From positions 1-64,000 of the forward strand of contig JAENZJ010000017.1 of assembly GCA_016841325.1 (NCBI GenBank): a stretch of 64,000 bases of DNA, given 5' to 3'. This DNA comes from Thermincola carboxydiphila. GTDB taxonomy: Bacteria; Bacillota; Thermincolia; Thermincolales; UBA2595. The translations under genes were made by a program, and so were the position numbers. Positions 3,034-35,799 of the stretch are shown here, piece after piece (position 1 is the first letter of the stretch; each line of letters starts with the position of its first letter). The notes beneath the pieces are model-generated. The model worked only from the letters and a program-made list of their open reading frames with translations. It was not told the origin of the DNA and ran no database searches.

Positions 3034-3087
3034 TTTCCCCGGTGCAGTCGGTGAACAAATATTGCCTGCAGAATTTATAAGCAAAAA

Positions 3088-3170
3088 TGTGACAAAGGTA
3101 AACCCGTTGAAAGACGGGGACACAAAGCCATGGGTCTAAGGTACTGTTGCTATGACTGCCAGGCTGCCGG
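3088..3170 (+). promoter_or_regulatory. c-di-GMP-I (GEMM-I) riboswitch upstream of a chemoreceptor
   Basis: The GEMM-I layout is recognisable: AAGGTAAA, a hairpin CCCGTT-GAAA-GACGGG (3103-3118) with a GAAA tetraloop, GGACACAAAGCC (consensus GACGCAAAGC, one change), a P3 helix holding the 11-nt tetraloop receptor as TCTAAG (3135-3140) opposite TATGA (3151-3155), then GCCAGGCTGCCGG. The receptor differs from CCUAAG/UAUGG by a compensating C-G to U-A swap. A 17-bp hairpin follows 5 nt later and the chemoreceptor gene starts 86 nt after the aptamer. Ligand binding is inferred from family resemblance; whether it turns expression on or off is not decided. Confidence 0.88.
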
Positions 3171-3174
3171 ATTA

Positions 3175-5770: not shown

Positions 5771-5800
5771 AAAAAAGAGAGCCTAGTAGCTCTCTTTTTT
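5771..5800. terminator. bidirectional terminator between convergent genes
   Basis: AAAAAAGAGAGC, loop CTAGTA, GCTCTCTTTTTT: a 12-bp stem with A- and U-runs on both sides, so it works in both directions. The last codons and stop of the minus-strand LysR gene lie inside it. Confidence 0.9.
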
Positions 5801-6670
5801 AATGTGTGACAAAAAGGCCAGGGCCGCCGGGGAAAGGTGAACTCCTTTGGGGAAAATACAGAGCAGCTGCCTGTTCATTTGCAGTTCAGGAAAACCGGGG
5901 GCACATAAAAGGCCGGTCTGCAGTTCCAGTCCCACGGTGAACCTGGACAGAAAAGTAATCCCCATCCCAGCCATGACGGCCCTTTTTACAGCCTCGGTGT
6001 CGCCCAGGGTGACAACCCTGCCGGGTTTGATATGGACACTTTCCAGAATTGATTCCAGGGCCTTCCTGGTGGCTGAACCCAGTTCCCTTAGAATAAAAAC
6101 CTCATCAGCAAGCAGTTCCGGTTGAAATGCGTCTGTTTTGGCTAAAGGATGGTCCGGGTATACCAAAAAAAGAATCCGGTCCTCAAGGATTGGTTCAATA
6201 CACAGTCCCGGAGGTTCGGCAATACCTGCGATAAAGGCCAGGTCAAAATCCCTGTTGGCAGCTCTGGCGGCAATTTCATCACTGCTGCCCAGTTCCAGGA
6301 AGGCCTCAATGTTGGGGTGCAGCTTTAGAAAAGTGGCCAGTGGTGTGGGCAGTAAATAGCTGCCCATTGTTGTACAGGCCCCAATACTCAGTTTCCCGGT
6401 ATGCAGGCCCTGCAGTTCCTGCAGGGTCCTGTCAGCCTCATCAGCCAGCCGCAGCATCTGTTCAACATATTCAAACAGCCTCCGGCCGGCTTCACTCAGG
6501 TAAACGCCACGGCTGTGCCTGTTAAACAGGCTTATTCCCACTGATTTTTCGAGGGATTCAATCTGGCGGGACAGGGCCGGCTGTGTAATGTGGAGTCTTT
6601 CGGCCCCTTTGCTGAAGCTGCCGGACCTGGCAATTTCATAAAATGCCCTGAGCTGGGATAATTCCATCAT
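5783..6670 (-). CDS. LysR-family transcriptional regulator
   Basis: A 295-residue regulator with an N-terminal winged helix-turn-helix (about 1-60; ITQPALSRQIESLE is the recognition region) and a periplasmic-binding-protein-like effector domain. It is transcribed away from selD, and the 143-bp gap between them holds a 34-bp sequence that recurs upstream of the membrane selenoprotein gene at 11002. This makes it the obvious candidate regulator of both units. The effector could be a sulfur or selenium metabolite by analogy with CysB/CysL-type regulators, but nothing in the sequence proves this. The start is an ATGATG pair preceded by AGGTGG; the first ATG is used here. Confidence 0.92.
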   Translation of the reverse strand: MMELSQLRAFYEIARSGSFSKGAERLHITQPALSRQIESLEKSVGISLFNRHSRGVYLSEAGRRLFEYVEQMLRLADEADRTLQELQGLHTGKLSIGACTTMGSYLLPTPLATFLKLHPNIEAFLELGSSDEIAARAANRDFDLAFIAGIAEPPGLCIEPILEDRILFLVYPDHPLAKTDAFQPELLADEVFILRELGSATRKALESILESVHIKPGRVVTLGDTEAVKRAVMAGMGITFLSRFTVGLELQTGLLCAPGFPELQMNRQLLCIFPKGVHLSPAALAFLSHIKKESY

Positions 6671-6813: not shown

Positions 6814-7857
6814 TTGAAAGAGAAAACTGCTGTCAGGTTGACAAGTTTTTCACCGGGCTCCGGCTGAGCCTGCAAAATAGATCCGGCGGATCTAAAACAG
6901 ATTCTGACCAGTCTCCCCAAAATCGAGGATAAACGCTTTTATACTGAGGACGCTGATGATGCGGCGGTCTTTAAGGTCAGTGAAGACCTGGCAATGGTCC
7001 AGACCGTTGATTTTATCACCCCTGTCTTAAATGACCCCTATTCCTTCGGAGCGGTAGCAGCTGCGAATGCCTTAAGTGATATATATGCCATGGGAGCTGA
7101 ACCGGTTTTTGCTTTAAATATAGTCTGTTTTCCCGTAAAAAGCCTCGCAGTCAGTATCCTTGAAGAAATCCTGCGTGGCGGGGCCGATGTTGCTGCAAAG
7201 GCAGGGGTAACCATCGCCGGGGGGCATTCTGTGGAAGACAATGCGCCCAAATATGGGATGGCTGTTACGGGTACCGTGAATCCCGAAAAATTGTTATTTA
7301 AAAAAGGGGCGCGCCCCGGAGATAAGCTGTACCTGACCAAACCTTTAGGGTCAGGGATTATAACAACAGCCATTGACCGCGATTTAGCCGGGGCAGAGTT
7401 GATAACAAAGGTCTATGACCTGATGGTGGAACTAAACCGCGGCGCCGCCAGGGCTATGCTGGAAGTTGGTGTCAATGCCTGTACCGATGTGAGCGGGTTT
7501 GGCTTCCTGGGCCACCTTTATGAGATGCTTGCTGCAGGCAGGACGGGCGCCCGGATATATACCGGCTCCGTACCGGTCATTGATGCGGTCTGGGATTTGG
7601 TCCGTTCCGGGATAGTACCTGCCGGAACTCATAATAACTACCGTTACCTGGCAGATAAAGTCAGGTCAGATAAAGTACAGTCCGAAACCCGGACAGTCTT
7701 ATGTGATTCCCAGACATCCGGAGGGCTGTTAATTGCAGTATCACCTGAAAAGGCAGCTCAGCTGGAAACATCACTGATTGAAGAAGGGTGCCTGGCAGCG
7801 GCCTGTGTGGGGGAAATCACTGACGGGCCTATGGGTATTATAGAGCTTTGGCCATAA
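6814..7857 (+). CDS. selD: selenophosphate synthase, itself a selenoprotein (Sec18)
   Basis: SelD makes selenophosphate from selenide and ATP for selenocysteine and selenouridine. The reading frame begins at a TTG (6814) behind a GAGG site and passes an in-frame TGA at 6865-6867: residues 15-21 read GSG-U-ACK. This is exactly the active-site position held by Cys17 in the E. coli enzyme (GAGCGCK, from memory), and the conserved Lys follows. The full length is 347 residues, the normal family length. Starting at the ATG at 6994 would lose the catalytic loop. A SECIS-type hairpin follows the UGA by 10 nt. Later family motifs are present (DDAAV, VQTVDF, GGHS, DVSGFG). It is the first gene of a selD-nifS-dsrE unit. 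Confidence 0.95.
6878..6894 (+). promoter_or_regulatory. bacterial SECIS hairpin of selD
   Basis: TAGATCC-GGC-GGATCTA: a 7-bp stem with a GGC loop. The loop begins 17 nt after the UGA at 6865-6867, and G's open the loop, both as expected for bacterial SECIS elements read by SelB. Confidence 0.85.
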
Positions 7858-7914
7858 CCGCATTCTTTTATTACCATAATTTTTAGCACATTTGCTGTTA
7901 TAGGAGGAATTTTG

Positions 7915-9057
7915 GTGACACCTGTATATATGGACTATAATGCAACAACACCCGTTGCTTCTGAGGTTGCCAGTGAAATGCTGCCTTATATTACCGAATA
8001 TTTTGGAAATCCCTCAAGCGGTCATATTTATGGAGCTAAAACCAAAGATGCCGTAATCAGGGGGAGGCAGCAGGTAGCTGATTTGTTAGGCTGTCTGCCT
8101 AAGGAAATTGTCTTTACCAGTGGTGGAAGTGAGGCCGACAATCTTGCCCTTAAGGGAATTGTGTATGCAAACAAAAACCCGAATGGGCACATTATTACCT
8201 CTCAAATTGAACATCCGGCCATTTTAAATACATGTAAAAGTTTAGAGCAACAAGGGTATCAGGTAACTTATCTTCCGGTTGACCATACAGGTACGATAAA
8301 TCCTGAGGATGTAAGAAAAGCGGTGACAAAGGACACTGTTCTGATAACAATAATGCACGCAAACAATGAAGTGGGTACCATTCAATCACTTTCCCAAATA
8401 GGGGAAATCGCCCGGGAGCAGAACATTTGTTTTCATACAGATGCAGCGCAGTCGGTTGGCAAAATTCCCACTAGGGTGGATGAGCTGAAGGTTGATTTGC
8501 TGACCCTGGCAGGACACAAGTTTTATGGGCCCAAAGGTATAGGGGCTCTCTACGTCCGTTCCGGAATAAATATTGAACCCCTTATTTGCGGAGCCAGCCA
8601 GGAGGGAGGATTGAGGGCGGGTACAGAAAACGTTGCCGGTATTGTGGGCTTGGGGAAGGCATGTCAACTGGCGGTTCAGGAAATGGAGCAGCGTGTAACG
8701 GAAATGACTGAGCTGGGCAGGTTGTTTTATCAGCTACTGGCAAAAGGGATTCCGGGAGTTGTTCTTAACGGGCATCCTGAAAATAAGCTGCCTAATACTT
8801 GGAATATAAGCTTTCAGGGTATAAATGCGGCAGAATTACTGGCAGTTGTTCCTGAAGTTGCTGCTTCAACAGGCTCAGCATGCCACCATGGGTCCCAAAC
8901 TCTGTCCCCTGTTTTGGCAGCTATGGGTATTGAGAAAGAAAGGGGAATGAGTTCCATCAGGTTTTCGTTGGGATGTGAAACTAATCGTGAACAGGTTCTG
9001 CACGCTGCTGAAATAATTATTGCAAGAGTCAAAAATATTTTAGGGAAGGAGGGATAA
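7915..9057 (+). CDS. NifS-like cysteine desulfurase / possible selenocysteine lyase
   Basis: A 380-residue PLP enzyme of the class-V aminotransferase fold. The PLP lysine is K202 in AGHKFYGPKG and the nucleophile C323 lies in STGSACHHGS. Such enzymes take S from cysteine or Se from selenocysteine as a bound persulfide or perselenide. The GTG at 7915 has AGGAGG 7 nt upstream; a TTG one codon earlier is too close. Lying between selD and a selenoprotein DsrE, it probably feeds Se (or S) to them rather than serving general Fe-S assembly; no iscU is nearby. Substrate choice is inference. Confidence 0.88.
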   Translation: MTPVYMDYNATTPVASEVASEMLPYITEYFGNPSSGHIYGAKTKDAVIRGRQQVADLLGCLPKEIVFTSGGSEADNLALKGIVYANKNPNGHIITSQIEHPAILNTCKSLEQQGYQVTYLPVDHTGTINPEDVRKAVTKDTVLITIMHANNEVGTIQSLSQIGEIAREQNICFHTDAAQSVGKIPTRVDELKVDLLTLAGHKFYGPKGIGALYVRSGINIEPLICGASQEGGLRAGTENVAGIVGLGKACQLAVQEMEQRVTEMTELGRLFYQLLAKGIPGVVLNGHPENKLPNTWNISFQGINAAELLAVVPEVAASTGSACHHGSQTLSPVLAAMGIEKERGMSSIRFSLGCETNREQVLHAAEIIIARVKNILGKEG

Positions 9058-9058
9058 T

Positions 9059-9409
9059 ATGAAGTATCTCTTTATAGTCAATGACGCTCCTTACGGAACA
9101 GAAAAGGCCTACAATGCCCTCAGGCTGGCCATGGTGATGCAAAAAGAAGTTGCCGCCGATATCAGGGTTTTTCTTATGGCTGATGCTGTTGCCAATGCTG
9201 TAACAGGCCAGAATACGCCACAGGGTTTTTATAATGTTGAGCGTATGCTTAAGGGAATCCTGACTAAAGGCGGAAAAGTCAAGTTATGAGGCACATGTAT
9301 GGACGCTCGGGGACTGAGCGAAGTACATATGATTGAAGGAACTGAAAGAAGCAATATGATAGAATTGGCCAACTGGATGGAAGAGGCTGACAAAGTGTTG
9401 ACATTTTAG
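9059..9409 (+). CDS. DsrE-family selenoprotein (Sec77)
   Basis: A 116-residue protein of the DsrE/YchN sulfur-relay fold. A TGA at 9287-9289 appears to stop it at 76 residues, but the frame continues for 39 codons to TAG at 9407, giving KL-U-GTCMDARGL and a C-terminal helix that ends ADKVLTF. In ordinary family members this spot is CGTCMDARG with a conserved Cys, so U77 replaces the active-site cysteine. A SECIS-type hairpin follows the UGA. It starts one base after the NifS-like gene ends, so the two are translationally close. A likely role is to carry selenium or sulfur as a perselenide; DsrE-like selenoproteins have, as I recall, been reported from sequence surveys. Confidence 0.9.
9295..9328 (+). 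promoter_or_regulatory. bacterial SECIS hairpin of the DsrE gene
   Basis: An inner stem CGCTC/GAGCG (9304-9308 with 9316-9320) carries the loop GGGGACT, and an outer stem ATGTA/TACAT (9295-9299 with 9324-9328) extends it. The loop starts 20 nt after the UGA and opens with G's. Confidence 0.82.
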
Positions 9410-9484: not shown

Positions 9485-10864
9485 ATGGCATACAAAACTG
9501 TCATCCTGGGTGGAGGCCCGGGAGGGTATGTGGCGGCCATCAGGGCTGCACAGCTGGGGGCAAAGGTCCTGGTGGTAGAAAAAGACCGGTTGGGAGGAAC
9601 ATGTCTTAACAGGGGCTGTATACCTACCAAGGCGCTGGTTTCCGGGACTGAACTACTCCGGGCCCTCAACAGGGGGGCGGAATTTGGAATTAATGCCGAT
9701 AACCTGGTGACAGATTTTTCGCGTTTTATGGGGCGCAAGGACGAGGTTGTGCAGAGACTCGTTACCGGTATCAACTATCTGCTTAAAAAGAACAAGGTTG
9801 GGATAGTCAAAGGCACCGGAAAGCTGTTGTCCCCAAACACTGTCCATATTGCCAAAGAGGATGGCAGCAGTGAACAGGTAAAGGCTGAAAACATAATAAT
9901 AGCGACCGGTTCCAGACCGGCTGTCAATCCCTCCTGGGGTTATGACGGGACAACTGTCTTAACCAGTGATGAAATCCTCAACCTGACGGAACAGCCAAAG
10001 AGTCTGCTCATAATCGGCGGAGGAGTCATTGGGTGTGAATTTGCCTGTATTTTTGCCCAACTCGGTACTGAAGTTACCATTGTGGAAATCATGCCTTCAA
10101 TACTGGGTACAATCGATAAGGAAGCGGCCAGGTTAATGCAGACTCTGTTTAAAAAACAGGGAATCAGTCTAAAAACCGGAACCGGAATCCGAAAAGTAAT
10201 CAAAGGTCAGGAAGGCTTAACGGTGACCCTGGAAACCGGGGAGGAAATTAGGGCTGAGAAAATGCTTGTTTCCGTTGGCAGGGCTTTTAATACCGAGGGG
10301 ATAGGTTTGGATACCATTGGTGTGGAGACCGGCCCCAGGGGCGAAATACCTGTTAATTCCCGAATGCAGACCGGTACCGGGAATATCTATGCCATTGGTG
10401 ATGTGACCAATAAAATTCAGCTTGCCCACGTAGCCTCGGCCCAGGGTATAATTGCAGCGGAAAATATTATGGGTAAGGACACTGAAATGGACTATACGGT
10501 GGTGCCCAACTGTATTTTTACTTATCCGGAAGTAGCTTTAGTAGGGATAACCGGCCAAATGGCCACAGAACAGGGAATTACCGTAAAACAAGGCAAATTT
10601 CCTTTTATGGCTTCCGGCAGGGCATTGGCCGCCGGACAGGCAGAAGGATTTGTGAAGATCATCACAGACCCGGTAACTGATAAAATACTAGGGGTTACTA
10701 TTGTCGGATCACATGCCTCAGACCTGATAGCTGAAGCAGCCCTGGCTATGAAACTGGGGGCAACTGCCCAACAACTGGCCGGCACAATCCATGCCCATCC
10801 TACTTTGGCAGAAGCGGTAATGGAAGCAGCCGAGGCTGTCCATGGAATAAGCATTCATATTTAG
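9485..10864 (+). CDS. dihydrolipoyl dehydrogenase-like flavoprotein disulfide reductase
   Basis: A 459-residue pyridine-nucleotide disulfide oxidoreductase. The N-terminal FAD motif is GGGPGGYVAA, the redox pair is C-x4-C in GGTCLNRGCIPTK, the NAD(P) motif is GGGVIGCEFA, and the C-terminal dimer domain carries the catalytic His-Glu region (HAHPTLAEAVMEA). The ATG at 9485 follows AAGGAGG. There are no pyruvate-dehydrogenase or glycine-cleavage genes beside it. Its place between a selenoprotein DsrE and a membrane selenoprotein hints that it reduces a disulfide or selenenyl-sulfide partner rather than serving a 2-oxoacid complex; this is inference. Confidence 0.9.
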   Translation: MAYKTVILGGGPGGYVAAIRAAQLGAKVLVVEKDRLGGTCLNRGCIPTKALVSGTELLRALNRGAEFGINADNLVTDFSRFMGRKDEVVQRLVTGINYLLKKNKVGIVKGTGKLLSPNTVHIAKEDGSSEQVKAENIIIATGSRPAVNPSWGYDGTTVLTSDEILNLTEQPKSLLIIGGGVIGCEFACIFAQLGTEVTIVEIMPSILGTIDKEAARLMQTLFKKQGISLKTGTGIRKVIKGQEGLTVTLETGEEIRAEKMLVSVGRAFNTEGIGLDTIGVETGPRGEIPVNSRMQTGTGNIYAIGDVTNKIQLAHVASAQGIIAAENIMGKDTEMDYTVVPNCIFTYPEVALVGITGQMATEQGITVKQGKFPFMASGRALAAGQAEGFVKIITDPVTDKILGVTIVGSHASDLIAEAALAMKLGATAQQLAGTIHAHPTLAEAVMEAAEAVHGISIHI

Positions 10865-10914: not shown

Positions 10915-11001
10915 GTAGGGTTATGGTAAGATAGGACCAACTCATAAATGCAGGACTGTAACTACTACCTGCTTAAATACTACAGGAAGGAGAAAGACAC
11001 C

Positions 11002-12126
11002 ATGAAGTTTAACCCATTTAAGTTTCAGGTACCTCTGGCTGCAGGAGGGATCTCATTGATGGCCTTTAATTATCTGCAGTATGCCGTGCCACATGGGGAG
11101 GGCTTAATCAGACTGTCAGATATGCAGTGGGAGAAACTCAGTACGGTTCAAAATTTCTTATATCTTTTTTTGACGGCAATCATGTTGCTTTTTACTGTCA
11201 TCAGCCTGGTTTCCACTGTTATCCTGTTAAAAAGCCTAATAATATGGCTTATTAACAGGGAGGAATATTCCGCATTCATGAACGGGCCCCCGACAATGAG
11301 TATCGGTATTTTTGTCCCCATTGCCTCCATGTCCATGATAGCAAATGTGGTCCTGGCCCCCCTGGCGTTTTTTGTTCCTGAAATATCATCAAATATACAA
11401 TCCTTAATGCTTCCTGGATTGATTTTCTTTGGCTGCCTCTGGTTGATTCTTTTTGCCCTTGAATTCAAGTTTCTAAAAAATTGGCTTACCCGGCCTCTTG
11501 ACGGGACCAAATTAAACTTTGTGTGGCTGCTTGATGTCTTCGCCTTTGGTCTGGTTAACCTGACCGGTACAGGAATAGCATCCATGGCTGCCGGTAAAGA
11601 AGTTTCATCAATAGCTGCCTTTGCATCATTGCTGGCTTTGGGTGTTGGTCTGTTTTTACTGGTTACCAAACTTGGCTACCTGGTTTACCTACAGCTGAAA
11701 TCTGTCAGCCTGCCGCAGGACGCAGTACTTCCCAGCTATTTTATCATGATCCCCATTATCTGTTTGTTTGGTATAAGTCTTCTGAGACTGACCCAGTATT
11801 TACAGATACACTTTAGCTTTAATACAGAAGTGATTTCCTTCCTTTTAATCAATTTTTCATATGTTTGTGCTATTGGCTGGGGTATCTTCAGTGTTTATTT
11901 ACTCAGCAGTTACTTCAGGAAATACTTCTACAGGAGTGAATTTTCCGCAACCCAGTGGGCTATGGTCTGAGCTTTTGTTGGCTCCCAAGTTTTGGGGGTT
12001 TATGTCTACGCAAATTATTTTCCCAATGCAGTTCTTTCCACAGTAAATTATATCAGCGTAATCCTTGCATCTGTCATGTATGCTGTTGTTTTTGGCAAGT
12101 TTTATCAGGCTCATAAGACTAAATAA
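11002..12126 (+). CDS. ten-helix membrane selenoprotein (Sec323), TsoY-like
   Basis: The frame opens at an ATG behind AGGAAGGAG and meets TGA at 11968-11970. Without a break it continues 51 sense codons to TAA at 12124, adding two more hydrophobic helices. Read as Sec, the protein is 374 residues with about ten membrane helices; U323 sits in WAMV-U-AFVGSQ at the start of helix 9. A SECIS-type hairpin follows. The ten-helix plan recalls TehA/SLAC1-type channels, and I recall a family named 'TsoY family (seleno)protein' that fits, but cannot check either. It heads an operon with an HdrE-like and an HdrD-like gene, so a role in membrane redox chemistry or transport of a sulfur/selenium species is plausible. 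Confidence 0.88.
11982..11998 (+). promoter_or_regulatory. bacterial SECIS hairpin of the membrane selenoprotein gene
   Basis: CTCCCAA-GTT-TTGGGGG: a 7-bp stem with one U-G pair. The loop opens with G and starts 19 nt after the UGA at 11968-11970, matching the spacing of the other two SECIS hairpins in this locus. Confidence 0.8.
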
Positions 12127-12171: not shown

Positions 12172-12957
12172 ATGGACTCAGGTGTAGTGCTCTACTACAA
12201 ACCATGGATAATATTCTGGGTAATTCAGACATCAGGAATACTACTATTCATAGTAGGCATGGTCAGTAAATTTTCCTTTTATTTTAGCGGAAAAGGCAGG
12301 TTATTATATAAACAGCCTGACTACAAAGCAATGTTAGCCGCTCTCTTCCGGGAAGTATTGTTCCAAAAACATATCATCCAGAGAAGCCTGTTGCGCTGGT
12401 CTGTTCATATGCTGATCTTTTGGGGGTTTATGGGGCTAATTTCCCTTTCGGCAATAGCGGTGGCTCTGGAGACCATTATCCCGGAAGGTTCCGTAGTCAG
12501 CCAGTATATGCTCCGCGGCCAGGGCCACAATTATTATAAGCTGGCCGGAGACCTTTTCGGATTCATGCTGTTGGCAGGAGTAACGGCTGCCTTCCTCAGG
12601 AGGTTTATTTTCCGGGCAGACCAACTGCATACCGACTCCTCAGATACGACAACCCTGGTTTTTCTGTTATTACTGGTTGTTACCGGCTTCCTTCTGGAAG
12701 CTGTCAGGATAGGGATGTCAGGACCGGCGCCGGGACTGCAGTATTCATTTATCGGATACCGGCTGTCTCAGCTTACGTTATTACAGGGAGAGTGGGCTCG
12801 CACTGCCGCATCTGTGCTGTGGACCCTGCATGCCTTACTTACAGCCGCCCTGCTGGCTTATTTTCCCCACAGCAAGTTTATGCATGTCTTCAGCAGTCCG
12901 GCAGAGATTATATTGAATGCTTCCGAAGAACGGGTAAGGGGTGATCTCTACGTATGA
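12172..12957 (+). CDS. HdrE/NarI-like membrane cytochrome subunit
   Basis: A 261-residue membrane protein with about six hydrophobic helices. Histidines in or near helices (RWSVHMLIFWG, WTLHALLTAAL, FPHSKFMHVF) fit haem b ligation as in the NarI/DsrM/HdrE family, which pass electrons between quinones and a cytoplasmic partner. The ATG follows GGGGTGG. Its end overlaps the start of the HdrD-like gene by four bases (ATGA), so the two subunits are translationally coupled and probably form one complex. The partner membrane selenoprotein is just upstream. Confidence 0.82.
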   Translation: MDSGVVLYYKPWIIFWVIQTSGILLFIVGMVSKFSFYFSGKGRLLYKQPDYKAMLAALFREVLFQKHIIQRSLLRWSVHMLIFWGFMGLISLSAIAVALETIIPEGSVVSQYMLRGQGHNYYKLAGDLFGFMLLAGVTAAFLRRFIFRADQLHTDSSDTTTLVFLLLLVVTGFLLEAVRIGMSGPAPGLQYSFIGYRLSQLTLLQGEWARTAASVLWTLHALLTAALLAYFPHSKFMHVFSSPAEIILNASEERVRGDLYV

Positions 12958-14204
12958 AAAAGAATAATAATCAGATCCCTTTGGAAAAATTAAGCCCCCG
13001 CAGGCTAATGTGCCTGGATGCCTGTACCAGGTGCGGGGAATGTAAGAACTGGTGCCCGGTATACAGCCTCACAGAAAATGAAAAGGTTACCCCAAGGACT
13101 AAAATCAAGAATTTCAAGTCGGTGTTAAAGGCTCAGAACGGGTTTCTGGGGATGTTCAAGTCCGGGATCGACCCGGATACCCTGGCAGACTTTCTGACAG
13201 GGCTGTATGAGTGTTCCTGCTGCAACCAGTGTCATTTTGTCTGTCCGTCAAGAATCGATACTGTTGAGTTATGGGAAGATGTCCGGGAAGCCATATACAG
13301 GTCAGGATTGGGTCCGATGCCTGAACAGAGGACCTTCTGTGAAAATCTGGTCAAATACGGCAATCCCTTCAAAAAAGACCAGTCAGCCCGGACTGACTGG
13401 ATAGAGACAGGCCTTCAGGATGGAACACTGCTGTACAGACCTGAACTGATTACCGAAAACAAGGCTTCGGTCCTGTTGTTTATCGGGTGTACGGCGACTT
13501 TTGACGAAAAGGTAAGCCGCATCGCCAAACACACAGTCAATATCCTGAGCCGGGCGGGAGTTGAGTTCGGGGTTCTGGGAACAGAAGAAAACTGCTGTTA
13601 TGGCAAACTGCGCCGCATGGGGGACCCGTCTTTTAAGCAGCTGGCCGGGCAAAATATCGAAAAACTGAACAGCTTGGGATTTGATACCCTGGTTTCTGCA
13701 TGTGCCGGGTGTTTCAAAACACTCAACGCTGATTATCCCAAAGTTGGACAGCAAAAATATAAGATTTACCACCTTTCCGAGTACCTTGATATTCTGATTC
13801 AGCAGGGAAAGATAAAATTTGAGGTGCCTGTTGAAGGGAAAATTACTTACCATGACCCCTGCTTGCTGGGCAGGCACAACAACATCTATGAAGCCCCGCG
13901 CAGGGTGATTGCAGCAATTCCCGGTCTGGAACTGATTGAAATGGAAAGGACCAGGCAGTTCTCCAGGTGCTGTGGTGTCGGCGGAGGTTTGAAGATTGCC
14001 AACCATGATCTACAGGAAGCGGCATCTGTCCGCCGTATCAGGGACGCTGAGGAAACAGGGGCTGAGTTCCTTACCACTCCATGCCCAACCTGTTTTTCCG
14101 GATTGTCAGGTGGCGCCTTGAAGGCGGAATCTCACCTCAAGGTGGTTCATATGGCTGAATTGGCGGCCAGGTCAATGGGAATTGGACCTGCTGTGAAAGG
14201 CTAA
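12954..14204 (+). CDS. HdrD/GlpC-like iron-sulfur protein with two CCG domains
   Basis: A 416-residue cytoplasmic electron-transfer protein. Two 4Fe-4S motifs of the C-xx-C-xx-C-xxx-CP form are visible: C24/C27/C30/C34 and the CSCCNQCHFVCP segment. Two cysteine-rich CCG domains follow: one with NCCYGKLRRMG and CAGC, the other with HDPCLLGR, RCCGVGGG and CPTC. In HdrB/HdrD such domains hold the noncubane clusters that reduce heterodisulfides. Coupled to the HdrE-like gene, it should form a membrane-bound thiol/disulfide oxidoreductase. The true substrate is unknown; a selenenyl-sulfide or persulfide is an attractive guess given the neighbours. Confidence 0.9.
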   Translation: MKKNNNQIPLEKLSPRRLMCLDACTRCGECKNWCPVYSLTENEKVTPRTKIKNFKSVLKAQNGFLGMFKSGIDPDTLADFLTGLYECSCCNQCHFVCPSRIDTVELWEDVREAIYRSGLGPMPEQRTFCENLVKYGNPFKKDQSARTDWIETGLQDGTLLYRPELITENKASVLLFIGCTATFDEKVSRIAKHTVNILSRAGVEFGVLGTEENCCYGKLRRMGDPSFKQLAGQNIEKLNSLGFDTLVSACAGCFKTLNADYPKVGQQKYKIYHLSEYLDILIQQGKIKFEVPVEGKITYHDPCLLGRHNNIYEAPRRVIAAIPGLELIEMERTRQFSRCCGVGGGLKIANHDLQEAASVRRIRDAEETGAEFLTTPCPTCFSGLSGGALKAESHLKVVHMAELAARSMGIGPAVKG

Positions 14205-15641: not shown

Positions 15642-16520
15642 ATGAGAAACCTTTGGAAGGGAGCCATCAGTTTCGGCCTGGTGCATGTACCTGTAAAACT
15701 GTACGCGGCAACTGAAAGAAAGGACATTAAATTTAATTACCTCCATGAAAAATGTAAGACACCGGTGCGGTATGAAAAGGTCTGCCCGACATGTGAAACA
15801 GAAGTCCCTATGGAAGAAATAGTCAGGGGTTACGAGTATGAGAAAGGGAAATATGTAATCCTCAAAGATGAAGATTTTGAAAACATTCCCCTGGCGACAG
15901 CAAAAACAGTTGAGATTATAAACTTTGCTGAACTCAGTGAAATAGACCCGGTGTTTTTTGATAAGTCTTATTACCTGGCACCCGGAGACGGTGGCCAAAA
16001 GGCATATGAACTGCTGAAACAGGCTATGGCAGAAACCCAGAAAGTGGCAGTAGCCAAGGTGATTATCAGGTCCAAAGAGTCCCTGGCAGCTCTCAGGGTT
16101 TACCGGGATTTAATTGTTATGGAGACAATGTTTTATCCTGATGAAATCAGGAACACTGAGCTGCTGCCGGAAGTCAATTATAATGTGAAGATAAATGAAA
16201 ATGAGGCTAAAATGGCAGCAAACCTGATAGAGAGTCTTACCGAGCCATTCAATCCGCAAAAATATCATAATGAATACCGGGCTGCGCTAAGTGAACTCAT
16301 TGAATCCCGCATTAGCGGTGAAGAGGTTGAAGTGGCGCCCAGGGTTGAGACAGGCAGGGTTGTTGACCTGATGGAAGCCCTTAAGGCAAGTATCGACCTG
16401 GCCAAGGAAGAAAAGGAACGGGCGGGAATGAAAAAAGGAACAAAGGCAGAGGCAAAGACAGGCAGAAAGGCCGGGACCGGGTCCGGCAAAGGCCGGAAAA
16501 AGGCTAAGACGGTTTCCTGA
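15642..16520 (+). CDS. ku: Ku DNA-end-binding protein (non-homologous end joining)
   Basis: A 292-residue bacterial Ku. It begins MRNLWKGAISFGLVHVPVKLY, the typical N terminus, contains the Ku core with a CxxC pair in KVCPTCE, and ends in a Lys/Arg/Gly-rich tail (from about 262) as in many bacterial homologues. It forms a ring on DNA ends and recruits LigD. The ATG follows GTGAGGTGG. Its stop overlaps the start of the ligase gene by one base, so ku and ligase are co-translated. The 189-bp gap upstream holds a short hairpin ACGACG/CGTCGT (15502-15518) but no gene. Confidence 0.95.
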   Translation: MRNLWKGAISFGLVHVPVKLYAATERKDIKFNYLHEKCKTPVRYEKVCPTCETEVPMEEIVRGYEYEKGKYVILKDEDFENIPLATAKTVEIINFAELSEIDPVFFDKSYYLAPGDGGQKAYELLKQAMAETQKVAVAKVIIRSKESLAALRVYRDLIVMETMFYPDEIRNTELLPEVNYNVKINENEAKMAANLIESLTEPFNPQKYHNEYRAALSELIESRISGEEVEVAPRVETGRVVDLMEALKASIDLAKEEKERAGMKKGTKAEAKTGRKAGTGSGKGRKKAKTVS

Positions 16521-17542
16521 TGAGAAAAATGAATCGTGATCAGGCCATCAAATGGTTCAGGACATTAGACCCCATGCTGGCTGTCCCGGCAGAGCCTTTC
16601 AGTTCCCCGGAATACATTTTTGAGGTTAAATGGGACGGATTCAGGTGTCTGGCTTATCTGGATGATAACACTATACTGCAGAGCCGCAACAGGTTGGAGT
16701 TTGGCCATAAGTTTCCCGAACTGGAAGGAATAACCCGGTTGATCAGGAAACACCCTGCCATTATAGACGGTGAGATTATCATTATGGAAGGTGGCCGGCC
16801 GTCATTTTATGAGCTGCAGAAAAGGGGCTGGACAAAGGATGTCCGTTCTATCGCCAGGGAATCTGCCGTCAAACCGGCCACTTTAGTTGTGTTTGACATC
16901 TTGCTGTCCGGGGATACGGTAGTCACAGGTGTGCCCCTGGCTGAAAGAAAAGAAATTCTCAGGGAAATTGTTGAACCTGATGACCGGATATTTATTTCGG
17001 AAGGTATCCCCGGGAAGGGCCTGGAAGTATATCAGGCATGTATTGAACAGGAACTTGAAGGGGTAGTCGGCAAAAGGGCTGACAGCCTTTACTACCCGGG
17101 CCGGCGTGTTGAATTTTGGAAGAAATTTAAAAAAGCTCATGAGGGGGATTTTGTTATCTGTGGATACCGTCAGACCCATGAGAATACAGAAAGGGTTGAT
17201 TCATTGATCCTTGGGTGTCCGGTGGGAAACGAAATGGTATTTCAGGGAGCTGTGGGGGTTGGGCTGGGCGGTATAACAGGGCAAAAACTCTACCGGGAAC
17301 TCAGGTCATTAATAATTGATACACCCCTTTTTAAAGTGCCACAGAATGTATCCCGTGGACTAAAATGGGTCAGGCCTGTCATCTGCTGTTCTGTGGAATT
17401 CCTGGAACCGGCCAGGGACGGCGGGCTAAGGCATCCCGTTTTCAGAGGGCTGCGCCATGACCTGGACCCCGAAGAATGTACCGGAATTGCCGGGGCTGTT
17501 CCCTCCCATGACCGGGCAGCCGACCCGGATGACACTAACTGA
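16520..17542 (+). CDS. ligD: ATP-dependent DNA ligase domain protein (LigD-LIG)
   Basis: A 340-residue ATP-dependent DNA ligase. The AMP-binding Lys is K37 in FEVKWDGFR; further nucleotidyltransferase motifs are visible (DGEIIIM, EGVVGK, FWKKFK) and an OB-fold completes the C terminus. It seals ends held by Ku. It stops at a TGA (17540-17542). The frame then continues open straight into the polymerase gene, so the two are a split version of the LIG-POL LigD protein known in Firmicutes such as B. subtilis YkoU. Confidence 0.93.
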   Translation: MRKMNRDQAIKWFRTLDPMLAVPAEPFSSPEYIFEVKWDGFRCLAYLDDNTILQSRNRLEFGHKFPELEGITRLIRKHPAIIDGEIIIMEGGRPSFYELQKRGWTKDVRSIARESAVKPATLVVFDILLSGDTVVTGVPLAERKEILREIVEPDDRIFISEGIPGKGLEVYQACIEQELEGVVGKRADSLYYPGRRVEFWKKFKKAHEGDFVICGYRQTHENTERVDSLILGCPVGNEMVFQGAVGVGLGGITGQKLYRELRSLIIDTPLFKVPQNVSRGLKWVRPVICCSVEFLEPARDGGLRHPVFRGLRHDLDPEECTGIAGAVPSHDRAADPDDTN

Positions 17543-17557
17543 TATATTCCGGAGGTA

Positions 17558-18469
17558 ATGAATTTGGACCAAGAGGTTATAATTGAAGGCAAAAGCCTCA
17601 AGCTGACAAATCTGGAAAAACTGATGTGGCCCGGGGATGCAATTAATAAGGCCGGGCTGATAAAATACTATGCCGATATTGCAGATATCCTGCTGCCACA
17701 TTTAAAAGACAGGTTGTTTATCATGAGCCGGTATCCTGACGGGATATATGGAGAGATGTTCTATCAGAAGGACTGCCCTGGTTATGCTCCCCAATGGATC
17801 AGGACATTTCCGGTGGAGTCAGCTGATGTGGGTAAAACTATAAACTATGTTATCTGTAATGACCTGCCAACACTCTTATGGCTCGCCAACCAGGCCTGTA
17901 TTGAAATGCATATCTGGCTGGCAAAGGTGCCAAATTTAAACAACCCTGATATCATGGTCTTTGACCTTGACCCCATGCCCCCGGCCGGATTTAAGGATAC
18001 CCTGGAGGTTGCCCTCCTGGTAAAAGAGGGTCTGGAACAGTTTGGCCTCTGCGGATATCCCAAGACCTCCGGAGCTACGGGAATGCATGTTTTTGTGCCT
18101 ATCAAACCCAATTACACCTACAATGAAGTCCGTGATGCCGTTGAGTTCATCTGCCGGCAGGTCCATACGGTTTTTCCCCGGAAGACTACTATGGAAAGAC
18201 TGGTGGCTGACCGGGGAGGAAAGGTTTATTTGGATTACCTGCAGAATACCCGGGGGAAGACCATGACTTATCAGTACAGCCTGCGTCCAGTCCCCGGGGC
18301 TCCGGTATCAGCTCCGCTGACATGGGACGAAGTCAGGCAGGGAAAGGTACGCCCCGGGCATTTTCACAGTGGCAACATGGTGGACAGAATTAAGGAATAC
18401 GGCGACCTTTATGAAGATTTTCTGAAAACGGGCCAGGACCTGGACAGGCTTGTGTCAATGGTACGTTAA
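17558..18469 (+). CDS. ligD: LigD polymerase/primase domain protein (LigD-POL)
   Basis: A 303-residue archaeo-eukaryotic-primase-type polymerase that fills gaps, often with ribonucleotides, during end joining. The metal-binding acidic pair D136/D138 is in MVFDLDP; HVFVP and YLDYLQN are other family motifs. It lies 15 nt after the ligase stop and in the same frame. GGAGGT sits only 2 nt before the ATG at 17558 but 8 nt before a TTG at 17564, which may be the real start. No phosphoesterase (PE) domain is present, as is usual in Firmicutes. Confidence 0.92.
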   Translation: MNLDQEVIIEGKSLKLTNLEKLMWPGDAINKAGLIKYYADIADILLPHLKDRLFIMSRYPDGIYGEMFYQKDCPGYAPQWIRTFPVESADVGKTINYVICNDLPTLLWLANQACIEMHIWLAKVPNLNNPDIMVFDLDPMPPAGFKDTLEVALLVKEGLEQFGLCGYPKTSGATGMHVFVPIKPNYTYNEVRDAVEFICRQVHTVFPRKTTMERLVADRGGKVYLDYLQNTRGKTMTYQYSLRPVPGAPVSAPLTWDEVRQGKVRPGHFHSGNMVDRIKEYGDLYEDFLKTGQDLDRLVSMVR

Positions 18470-28068: not shown

Positions 28069-28184
28069 AGAGGTTAAAATTGTAGGTTAACATATGGGAA
28101 AAAAATATAAAAATATGTAAGAAAAGGTAGGATTTTTGCAGACAGATGACGAATACACCTCAAAAATACATACCAAACTTTGTT

Positions 28185-28358
28185 CAACGGCAAATTTACC
28201 GAAAGGTAAAGGCGCAAAGCTACGGACCTAGAGGCTTGGTTATGATACCATAATCTTTTTGAGTTATCGGACAAACGGTCATTATATATTTATGATGCTG
28301 GTAACTTCCTTTAGATTATATTACATTTATTAAGAGCTATGGTTGCCGGGCTGCCGAA
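28185..28358 (+). promoter_or_regulatory. c-di-GMP-I (GEMM-I) riboswitch upstream of flgB, with enlarged P3
   Basis: The 5' half is canonical: CGGCAAA, hairpin TTTACC-GAAA-GGTAAA (28195-28210), GGCGCAAAGC (28211-28220), then CCTAGAG (28227-28233), a one-base-expanded form of the CCUAAG tetraloop receptor. The matching 3' half is found about 105 nt later: TATGG (28338-28342) and GCCGGGCTGCCG (28345-28356), nearly identical to GCCAGGCTGCCG in the chemoreceptor riboswitch. The intervening segment would be an insertion at the P3 tip. A terminator follows before flgB. In Clostridioides difficile a GEMM-I switch likewise precedes flgB and turns it off with c-di-GMP. Confidence 0.8.
28238..28260 (+). 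terminator. terminator-like hairpin within the P3 insertion
   Basis: GGTTATG-ATAC-CATAATC, a 7-bp stem with one G-U pair, is followed directly by TTTTT. It lies inside the enlarged P3 arm of the flgB riboswitch and could end transcription before the aptamer is complete. Confidence 0.45.
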
Positions 28359-35547: not shown

Positions 35548-35799
35548 CGGAAATGACCGGGAAATGGCTTATGGTGAGATGTTGTACCGATTTTCCGAAC
35601 TGTCGCCGGAGAAATGTAGCCTTGTTCCTGGCGAAGTCCGGGAACACCGCCAATTCGCCTTCCGTGGCTCAGTGGCGGCGCGGGCCGTCCATGGCCCGCG
35701 TCCCGGACTTCGCTTAGCGGAACAGCGGCGACATATCTCACGGCGCCAGTATAAGGAAAATCTTGTACAACACCTCATCAAATTCCACGGTCATTTCCG
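35548..35799. repeat. 252-bp imperfect palindrome between motE-like gene and fliK
   Basis: Nested inverted repeats fill the gap: outer CGGAAATGACCG (35548-35559) with CGGTCATTTCCG (35788-35799); then 35571-35596 with 35756-35779 (sharing TGTTGTAC and GATTTTCC); then GCGAAGTCCGGGA (35631-35643) with TCCCGGACTTCGC (35701-35713); and at the tip CGCGGGCC/GGCCCGCG (35679-35700). No credible gene lies in 35541-35936. It may be a long MITE-like insertion or an intra-operon RNA hairpin. Confidence 0.85.

Follow-up and report, generated by a model that had tools for sequence, protein, structure and literature searches.

A TsoY membrane selenoprotein of Thermincola carboxydiphila with selenocysteine at the predicted gate position of a SLAC1/TehA fold

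The gene at positions 11002 to 12126 of the 64,000-nucleotide stretch of the Thermincola carboxydiphila genome analysed here (the window) is a genuine tsoY gene that encodes a selenocysteine (Sec)-containing membrane protein, which confirms the initial annotation of this DNA as an observation and supports the interpretation given there. The family itself was already known. New here are the probable location of Sec at the gate of a channel-like fold, a separate SelD lineage linked to TsoY, and a testable hypothesis of transport.

The tsoY gene and its product

The features of tsoY are as follows.

10984..10992, forward strand: likely ribosome-binding site AGGAAGGAG (sequence)
11002..12126, forward strand: tsoY coding sequence, 374 amino acids including Sec323, membrane protein with the predicted ten-helix SLAC1/TehA fold (translation, NCBIfam and Pfam profiles, model)
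11968..11970, forward strand: UGA codon for Sec323, which pairs with gate residue Phe262 of HiTehA and F450 of AtSLAC1 (translation, alignments)
11980..12000, forward strand: SECIS hairpin with a 9-bp stem and a GUU apical loop, lying within the codons for GSQVLGV (folding, synonymous-codon test)

Under the standard code the reading ends at 11970. The frame contains a single in-frame TGA, codon 323, which is followed by 51 further codons and TAA. The start codon is backed by homologues that begin MKF[TN]PF.

Membership of the TsoY family, suggested in the initial annotation, was borne out by the NCBIfam equivalog NF047643 (selenoprotein TsoY), which gave 560.8 bits against a cut-off of 250 and was covered over its full length (1–366 of 366). 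The TsoY family model NF047644 scored 349.7 bits, and the protein gave no NCBIfam match to seleno_YedE (TIGR04112) at E values up to 0.01. A 2026 review (PMC13188914) lists TsoY (motif UxxV) without a function and gives Haft and Tolstoy 2025 as its source, in agreement with the initial annotation, which was aware of none. By the profiles and this listing, the window protein is an ordinary TsoY of an already known family; it is full-length, carries Sec at the site of the family, and differs from it in nothing essential.

Evidence for selenocysteine at codon 323

Two further hairpins downstream of UGA codons were found in the window.

6878..6894, forward strand: SECIS hairpin of selD (folding)
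9304..9320, forward strand: SECIS hairpin of the dsrE-like gene (folding, z −3.99)

The model for bacterial SECIS elements (PMC13188914) specifies a loop of 3–9 nt carrying G in its first two positions, a stem of 4–16 bp, a distance of 16–37 nt from the UGA, and an MFE of at most −7.5. The tsoY hairpin falls within this model, having the loop GUU, 9 bp, a position 18 nt 3′ of the UGA, and a centroid energy of −10.3 kcal/mol. Its claimed likeness to the other two hairpins holds, as these lie 17 nt from the selD UGA (6865) and 21 nt from the dsrE UGA (9287), and all three have G-first trinucleotide loops.

The folding energy of the tsoY hairpin is unexceptional (z −0.67) and by itself is no proof; hence, a synonymous-codon test was used instead. 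Across 32 Sec-form genes, 8.7 of the 9 stem pairs are kept, as compared with 5.7 expected for random synonymous codons, and all 32 have GGC as the fourth codon past the UGA. At L037 and L064, CAA/TTG is replaced by CAG/CTG, a paired change in the stem that is synonymous on both sides. The Trichococcus gene, which has a Cys codon, keeps just 5 of 9 pairs. Constraint on synonymous sites in favour of the hairpin is confined to the Sec-form tsoY genes.

All Sec-form homologues that span the site read on in frame beyond the UGA, and none ends there. Past the UGA, differences among relatives favour third codon positions (4, 3, and 14 in L036). This continuation and third-position bias indicate that the downstream residues are conserved, as the initial annotation had required of a true selenoprotein. 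The genome also encodes tRNA-Sec (75 bits) and SelB (369 bits). Chance origin of the pattern of UGA and SECIS is excluded. Standard gene calling does end the gene at the UGA, as would be expected were this a true stop followed by a spurious frame, but comparison with relatives has already refuted such a reading: the occurrence of Cys at this position, the third-position bias, the synonymous constraint and the confidently modelled helices 9 and 10 all speak against it, and its probability is negligible.

Distribution and exchange of Sec and Cys

When 398 genomes of the phylum were searched by HMM, 13 TsoY proteins scored above the cut-off; the genes of 12 contain a single TGA each, and the remaining gene has none. 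A scan of genome contigs provided 34 tsoY loci, and in all Sec-form loci that span the site the Sec codon is at the identical place. Cys at this position, which the initial annotation proposed to look for, replaces Sec323 in Trichococcus (L057, 52% identity; QWSMICALVGSQVLG) and also occupies it in two remote homologues, L069 and L015.

SelB scored above the cut-off in 11 of 14 tested genomes; among these 14 it was below the cut-off in Trichococcus and in the L069 genome, and split in L064. The Trichococcus genome retains SelD (371 bits), encoded without an in-frame TGA, and has Cys forms of both TsoY and the DsrE-like protein. Thus, the TsoY/DsrE pair appears to track selenium use, not Sec alone. 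The two Cys-form genes of Trichococcus adjoin a gene for an ArsR-rhodanese protein.

Carriers of tsoY include Desulfosporosinus, Thermincola, Geobacteraceae, Anaeromyxobacter and Anaerobacillus arseniciselenatis, and Mesobacillus selenatarsenatis SF-1 has two copies. In one genome (G236, 63% complete) TsoY is present and no good SelD was found.

In the genomes sampled from the phylum, TsoY and YedE, a predicted selenium transporter, tend not to be found together. By counts tallied by eye from tables of the phylum genomes, seleno_YedE passes its cut-off in 2 (G097 and G161) of the 11 genomes that have both SelD and a Sec-form TsoY, versus about 143 of 249 other genomes with SelD (p 0.013, ignoring kinship).

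Predicted fold and position of Sec323

The AlphaFold2 model, built from 29 sequences (the window protein and those from fetched loci), has a pLDDT of 92.3 and a pTM of 0.91. It consists of ten long helices, with Sec323 in helix 9 (316–338) followed by helix 10 (343–372), as the initial annotation had proposed. Foldseek and VIA-align 2 matched the model over its whole length to SLAC1/TehA proteins at Z 27–32.5, including HiTehA 3m71 (Z 29.8, 299 residues) and SLAC1 7en0 (Z 31.4, 302 residues), whereas unrelated folds (barrels) gave Z of 15 and below. A SLAC1/TehA channel fold is therefore predicted with confidence, and the comparison with TehA/SLAC1 suggested at the outset gave a positive result also with Pfam SLAC1 (PF03595; 35.8 bits, cut-off 27.9). 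No PDB sequence was matched by the TsoY profile in a direct HMM search (E up to 1), nor did a TehA-only HMM match TsoY significantly; hence, it is the broad Pfam model together with the predicted fold that supports homology to SLAC1. As compared with the SLAC1/TehA (TDT) anion channels, TsoY shares the ten-helix fold (Z about 30) but only about 11–16% of sequence identity.

In HiTehA the gating residue is Phe262 on TM9, equivalent to F450 of AtSLAC1, where the adjoining P451 breaks the helix (PMC11050165, PMC10645844). Helix 9 of TsoY, QW319AMVU323, pairs without gaps with LW258AFSF262 of HiTehA, the latter being numbered by means of its PDB alignment with TehA of E. coli. Position 323 paired with HiTehA 262 in hhalign and in every MAFFT run, with very low alignment scores; the overall hhalign profile-profile probability was 0.9%, yet the helix-9 pairing was unchanged. 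The remote Cys forms have LICP in the place of SFP of broader SLAC1-family proteins. The gating Phe is not kept in TsoY, all homologues that span the site having Sec or Cys there. Among 29 homologues, 12 of 16 invariant residues lie in the five pore helices, which make up 35% of the length (P 0.001). These alignments support the location of Sec323 at the position of the SLAC1/TehA gate.

The gene cluster around tsoY

The genes adjoining tsoY are, in order:

5783..6670, reverse strand: divergent LysR regulator, best match to the selenium metabolism-associated LysR family NF040786 (230 bits, cut-off 250; profile)
6814..7857, forward strand: selD paralogue with UGA at 6865–6867 and the motif SPGSG-Sec-ACK, of the TsoY-linked lineage (profile, tree)
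7912..9057, forward strand: NifS/IscS-type cysteine desulfurase (NifS 460 bits, below the cut-off of 530.75)
9059..9409, forward strand: small DsrE/TusD-like selenoprotein, Sec77 in the motif UGTC, UGA at 9287–9289
9485..10864, forward strand: dihydrolipoyl dehydrogenase, adjoining tsoY mainly in Thermincola-type loci (profile, locus comparison)
12172..12957, forward strand: NarI/QmoC-like membrane cytochrome b, found 3′ of tsoY only here and in close genomes (profiles, locus comparison)
12954..14204, forward strand: HdrD/DsrK-like iron-sulfur protein with CCG domains (profiles, locus comparison)

The LysR group associated with selenium metabolism was tied to SelD by Lin et al. 2015 (PMC5322559). 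Recurring neighbours of tsoY among the compared loci are SelD (19), LysR (19), DsrE (18) and NifS (14); ArsR or ArsR-rhodanese proteins occur in 14 loci and CGGC proteins in 9. The NarI- and HdrD-like proteins were considered as obligate partners of TsoY and rejected, being present in just 3 clustered loci. This cytochrome b and HdrD/DsrK-like pair (12172–14204), restricted to Thermincola-type loci, may represent a minimal quinone-linked thiol reductase. For TsoB of the Tso operon (TsoA-B-C), the best match in the T. carboxydiphila genome is partial and reaches 100 bits versus a cut-off of 805.

At L040, L056 and L059, genes for a molybdoenzyme of the Psr/Phs or Ttr/Srd type and its NrfD-like subunit lie within 10 kb of tsoY. 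Assignment of the reductase near TsoY of strain SF-1 as srdBCA was dropped, the L056 gene scoring as PhsA/PsrA-type. A two-component system lies between the TsoY cluster and the respiratory molybdoenzyme at L056.

Elsewhere in the window are two c-di-GMP-I riboswitches (3087–3171 and 28179–28358), one preceding a gene for a methyl-accepting chemotaxis protein and one preceding flagellar genes. A match to TwoAYGGAY RNA at 35596–35753 on the reverse strand (43.4, threshold 43), antisense to flagellar genes, is perhaps due to chance. Ku and separate ligase-like and polymerase-like frames at 15642–18469 probably constitute a bacterial NHEJ system.

A SelD lineage linked to TsoY

The T. carboxydiphila genome has a second SelD, with the motif GUAAK, at G000:C39:65585-66511. 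In a tree of 45 SelDs, 16 of 17 TsoY-linked SelDs form one group (support 100/99) characterised by the motif S[PS]GSG-U-A-C-K, the sole exception being that of L044. Neither the other SelDs that these TsoY-bearing genomes carry nor a set of 20 phylum SelDs, sampled among the top scorers, fall within this group. Judged from these sequences, the SelD linked to TsoY is a second, separate lineage that appears to be dedicated to the cluster.

Possible role of TsoY

It is proposed, at a probability of about 0.4, that selenium enters the cell by a dedicated route which begins at TsoY, a pore of SLAC1 fold with a selenol gate that relays selenium to the DsrE-like protein and SelD. With the gating Phe of helix 9 replaced by Sec, or by Cys in some relatives, selenium in a reduced or reactive form (HSe−, or selenite or a selenodithiol) would enter the pore and be held transiently by the gate selenol, possibly with Cys254 of helix 7 as a partner. 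On the cytoplasmic side, the small DsrE-like protein with its Sec77 or Cys would receive it as a carrier and deliver it to the SelD of the cluster for conversion to selenophosphate. NifS would contribute selenium taken from selenocysteine, and LysR would sense selenium status. The substrate, the direction and the relay are inferred.

This proposal draws on the family and its Sec residue, the fold, the gate pairing, the invariant residues of the pore helices, the cluster, the SelD lineage, the situation in Trichococcus and the tendency seen with YedE, as well as on two precedents. One is the proposed functional analogue YeeE/YedE with YeeD/YedF, a membrane protein with reactive Cys and a small sulfur/selenium carrier encoded beside SelD and a Sec lyase. 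It belongs to a different protein family from TsoY. The other is the yeast sulfite/selenite pump Ssu1, a member of the same Pfam family (SLAC1) as TsoY. In YeeE/YeeD, thiosulfate is relayed by pore cysteines to the cysteine of the small carrier (PMC11073785), and a Sec form of YeeE/YedE has been listed (PMC13188914). Ssu1 moves selenite (PMC10269739); unlike TsoY, it is eukaryotic and lacks Sec, and it is an exporter. This export by Ssu1 counts against entry, and the sequence does not fix the direction in TsoY. Further points also weigh against the entry route: the gate pairing comes from alignments of very low score, the YedE statistic ignores kinship and two genomes have both proteins, an ordinary second SelD in the genomes makes a dedicated selenium supply not obviously necessary, and the neighbours in Thermincola (NarI-like, HdrD-like and lipoamide dehydrogenase) suggest electron transfer. 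A stricter version is rather unlikely, namely that the reaction of selenium itself with Sec323 is what opens the pore, after which the selenium passes through the DsrE-type selenoprotein to the private SelD, a relay of three selenocysteines from outside to selenophosphate.

Export is the main rival. TsoY could be an efflux channel for selenium (or sulfite or sulfide) whose Sec gate is opened by excess selenium and which protects the cell during respiration or reduction of selenium oxyanions. This would accord with the clusters in M. selenatarsenatis SF-1, with its two copies, and A. arseniciselenatis, with the Psr/Phs- or Ttr/Srd-type reductases at L040, L056 and L059, with the ArsR(-rhodanese) regulators at 14 loci, and with export of selenite by Ssu1 (PMC10269739). 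However, a gene for detoxification has no need to be linked with SelD, with NifS and with a LysR related to selenium metabolism, selenate respiration is not known for most of the carriers, and in acute stress a pump that depends on Sec would become available only slowly. Such a role is possible, though the odds are clearly against it.

Next comes the doubtful option that TsoY, instead of being a channel, is an oxidoreductase in the membrane whose selenol takes electrons from the quinone pool, or from a reductase in the cytoplasm, and gives them to a compound of selenium or sulfur. Sec is usually catalytic, the genes for the cytochrome b and the HdrD-like protein follow immediately in Thermincola-type loci, and lipoamide dehydrogenase is a neighbour, as are thioredoxin reductase or NapH-like genes at other loci. 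Yet redox partners differ between genomes, with NarI/HdrD confined to 3 of the clustered loci, the SLAC1 fold has no known cofactor site, and the motif is UxxV, not UxxC. Conduction of sulfide, sulfite or thiosulfate, with the selenium genes as co-regulated bystanders, is improbable: sulfur proteins are encoded nearby (DsrE, NifS and the CGGC type), TsoY also occurs with Cys and Psr/Phs/Ttr-type reductases act on sulfur compounds, but the SelD lineage is specific to TsoY, the LysR is of the selenium type, and Trichococcus keeps SelD though SelB was not found.

No specific selenium transporter is known (PMC11097638; for prokaryotes, PMC13188914). TsoY is a concrete candidate for one, and its proposed function centres on a single putative gate residue at a position defined in solved structures. 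The separate SelD lineage suggests that some bacteria have two routes to selenophosphate. If the proposal of selenium entry is true, Sec would act in TsoY as a substrate-reactive gate of a pore, not as part of an enzyme active site.
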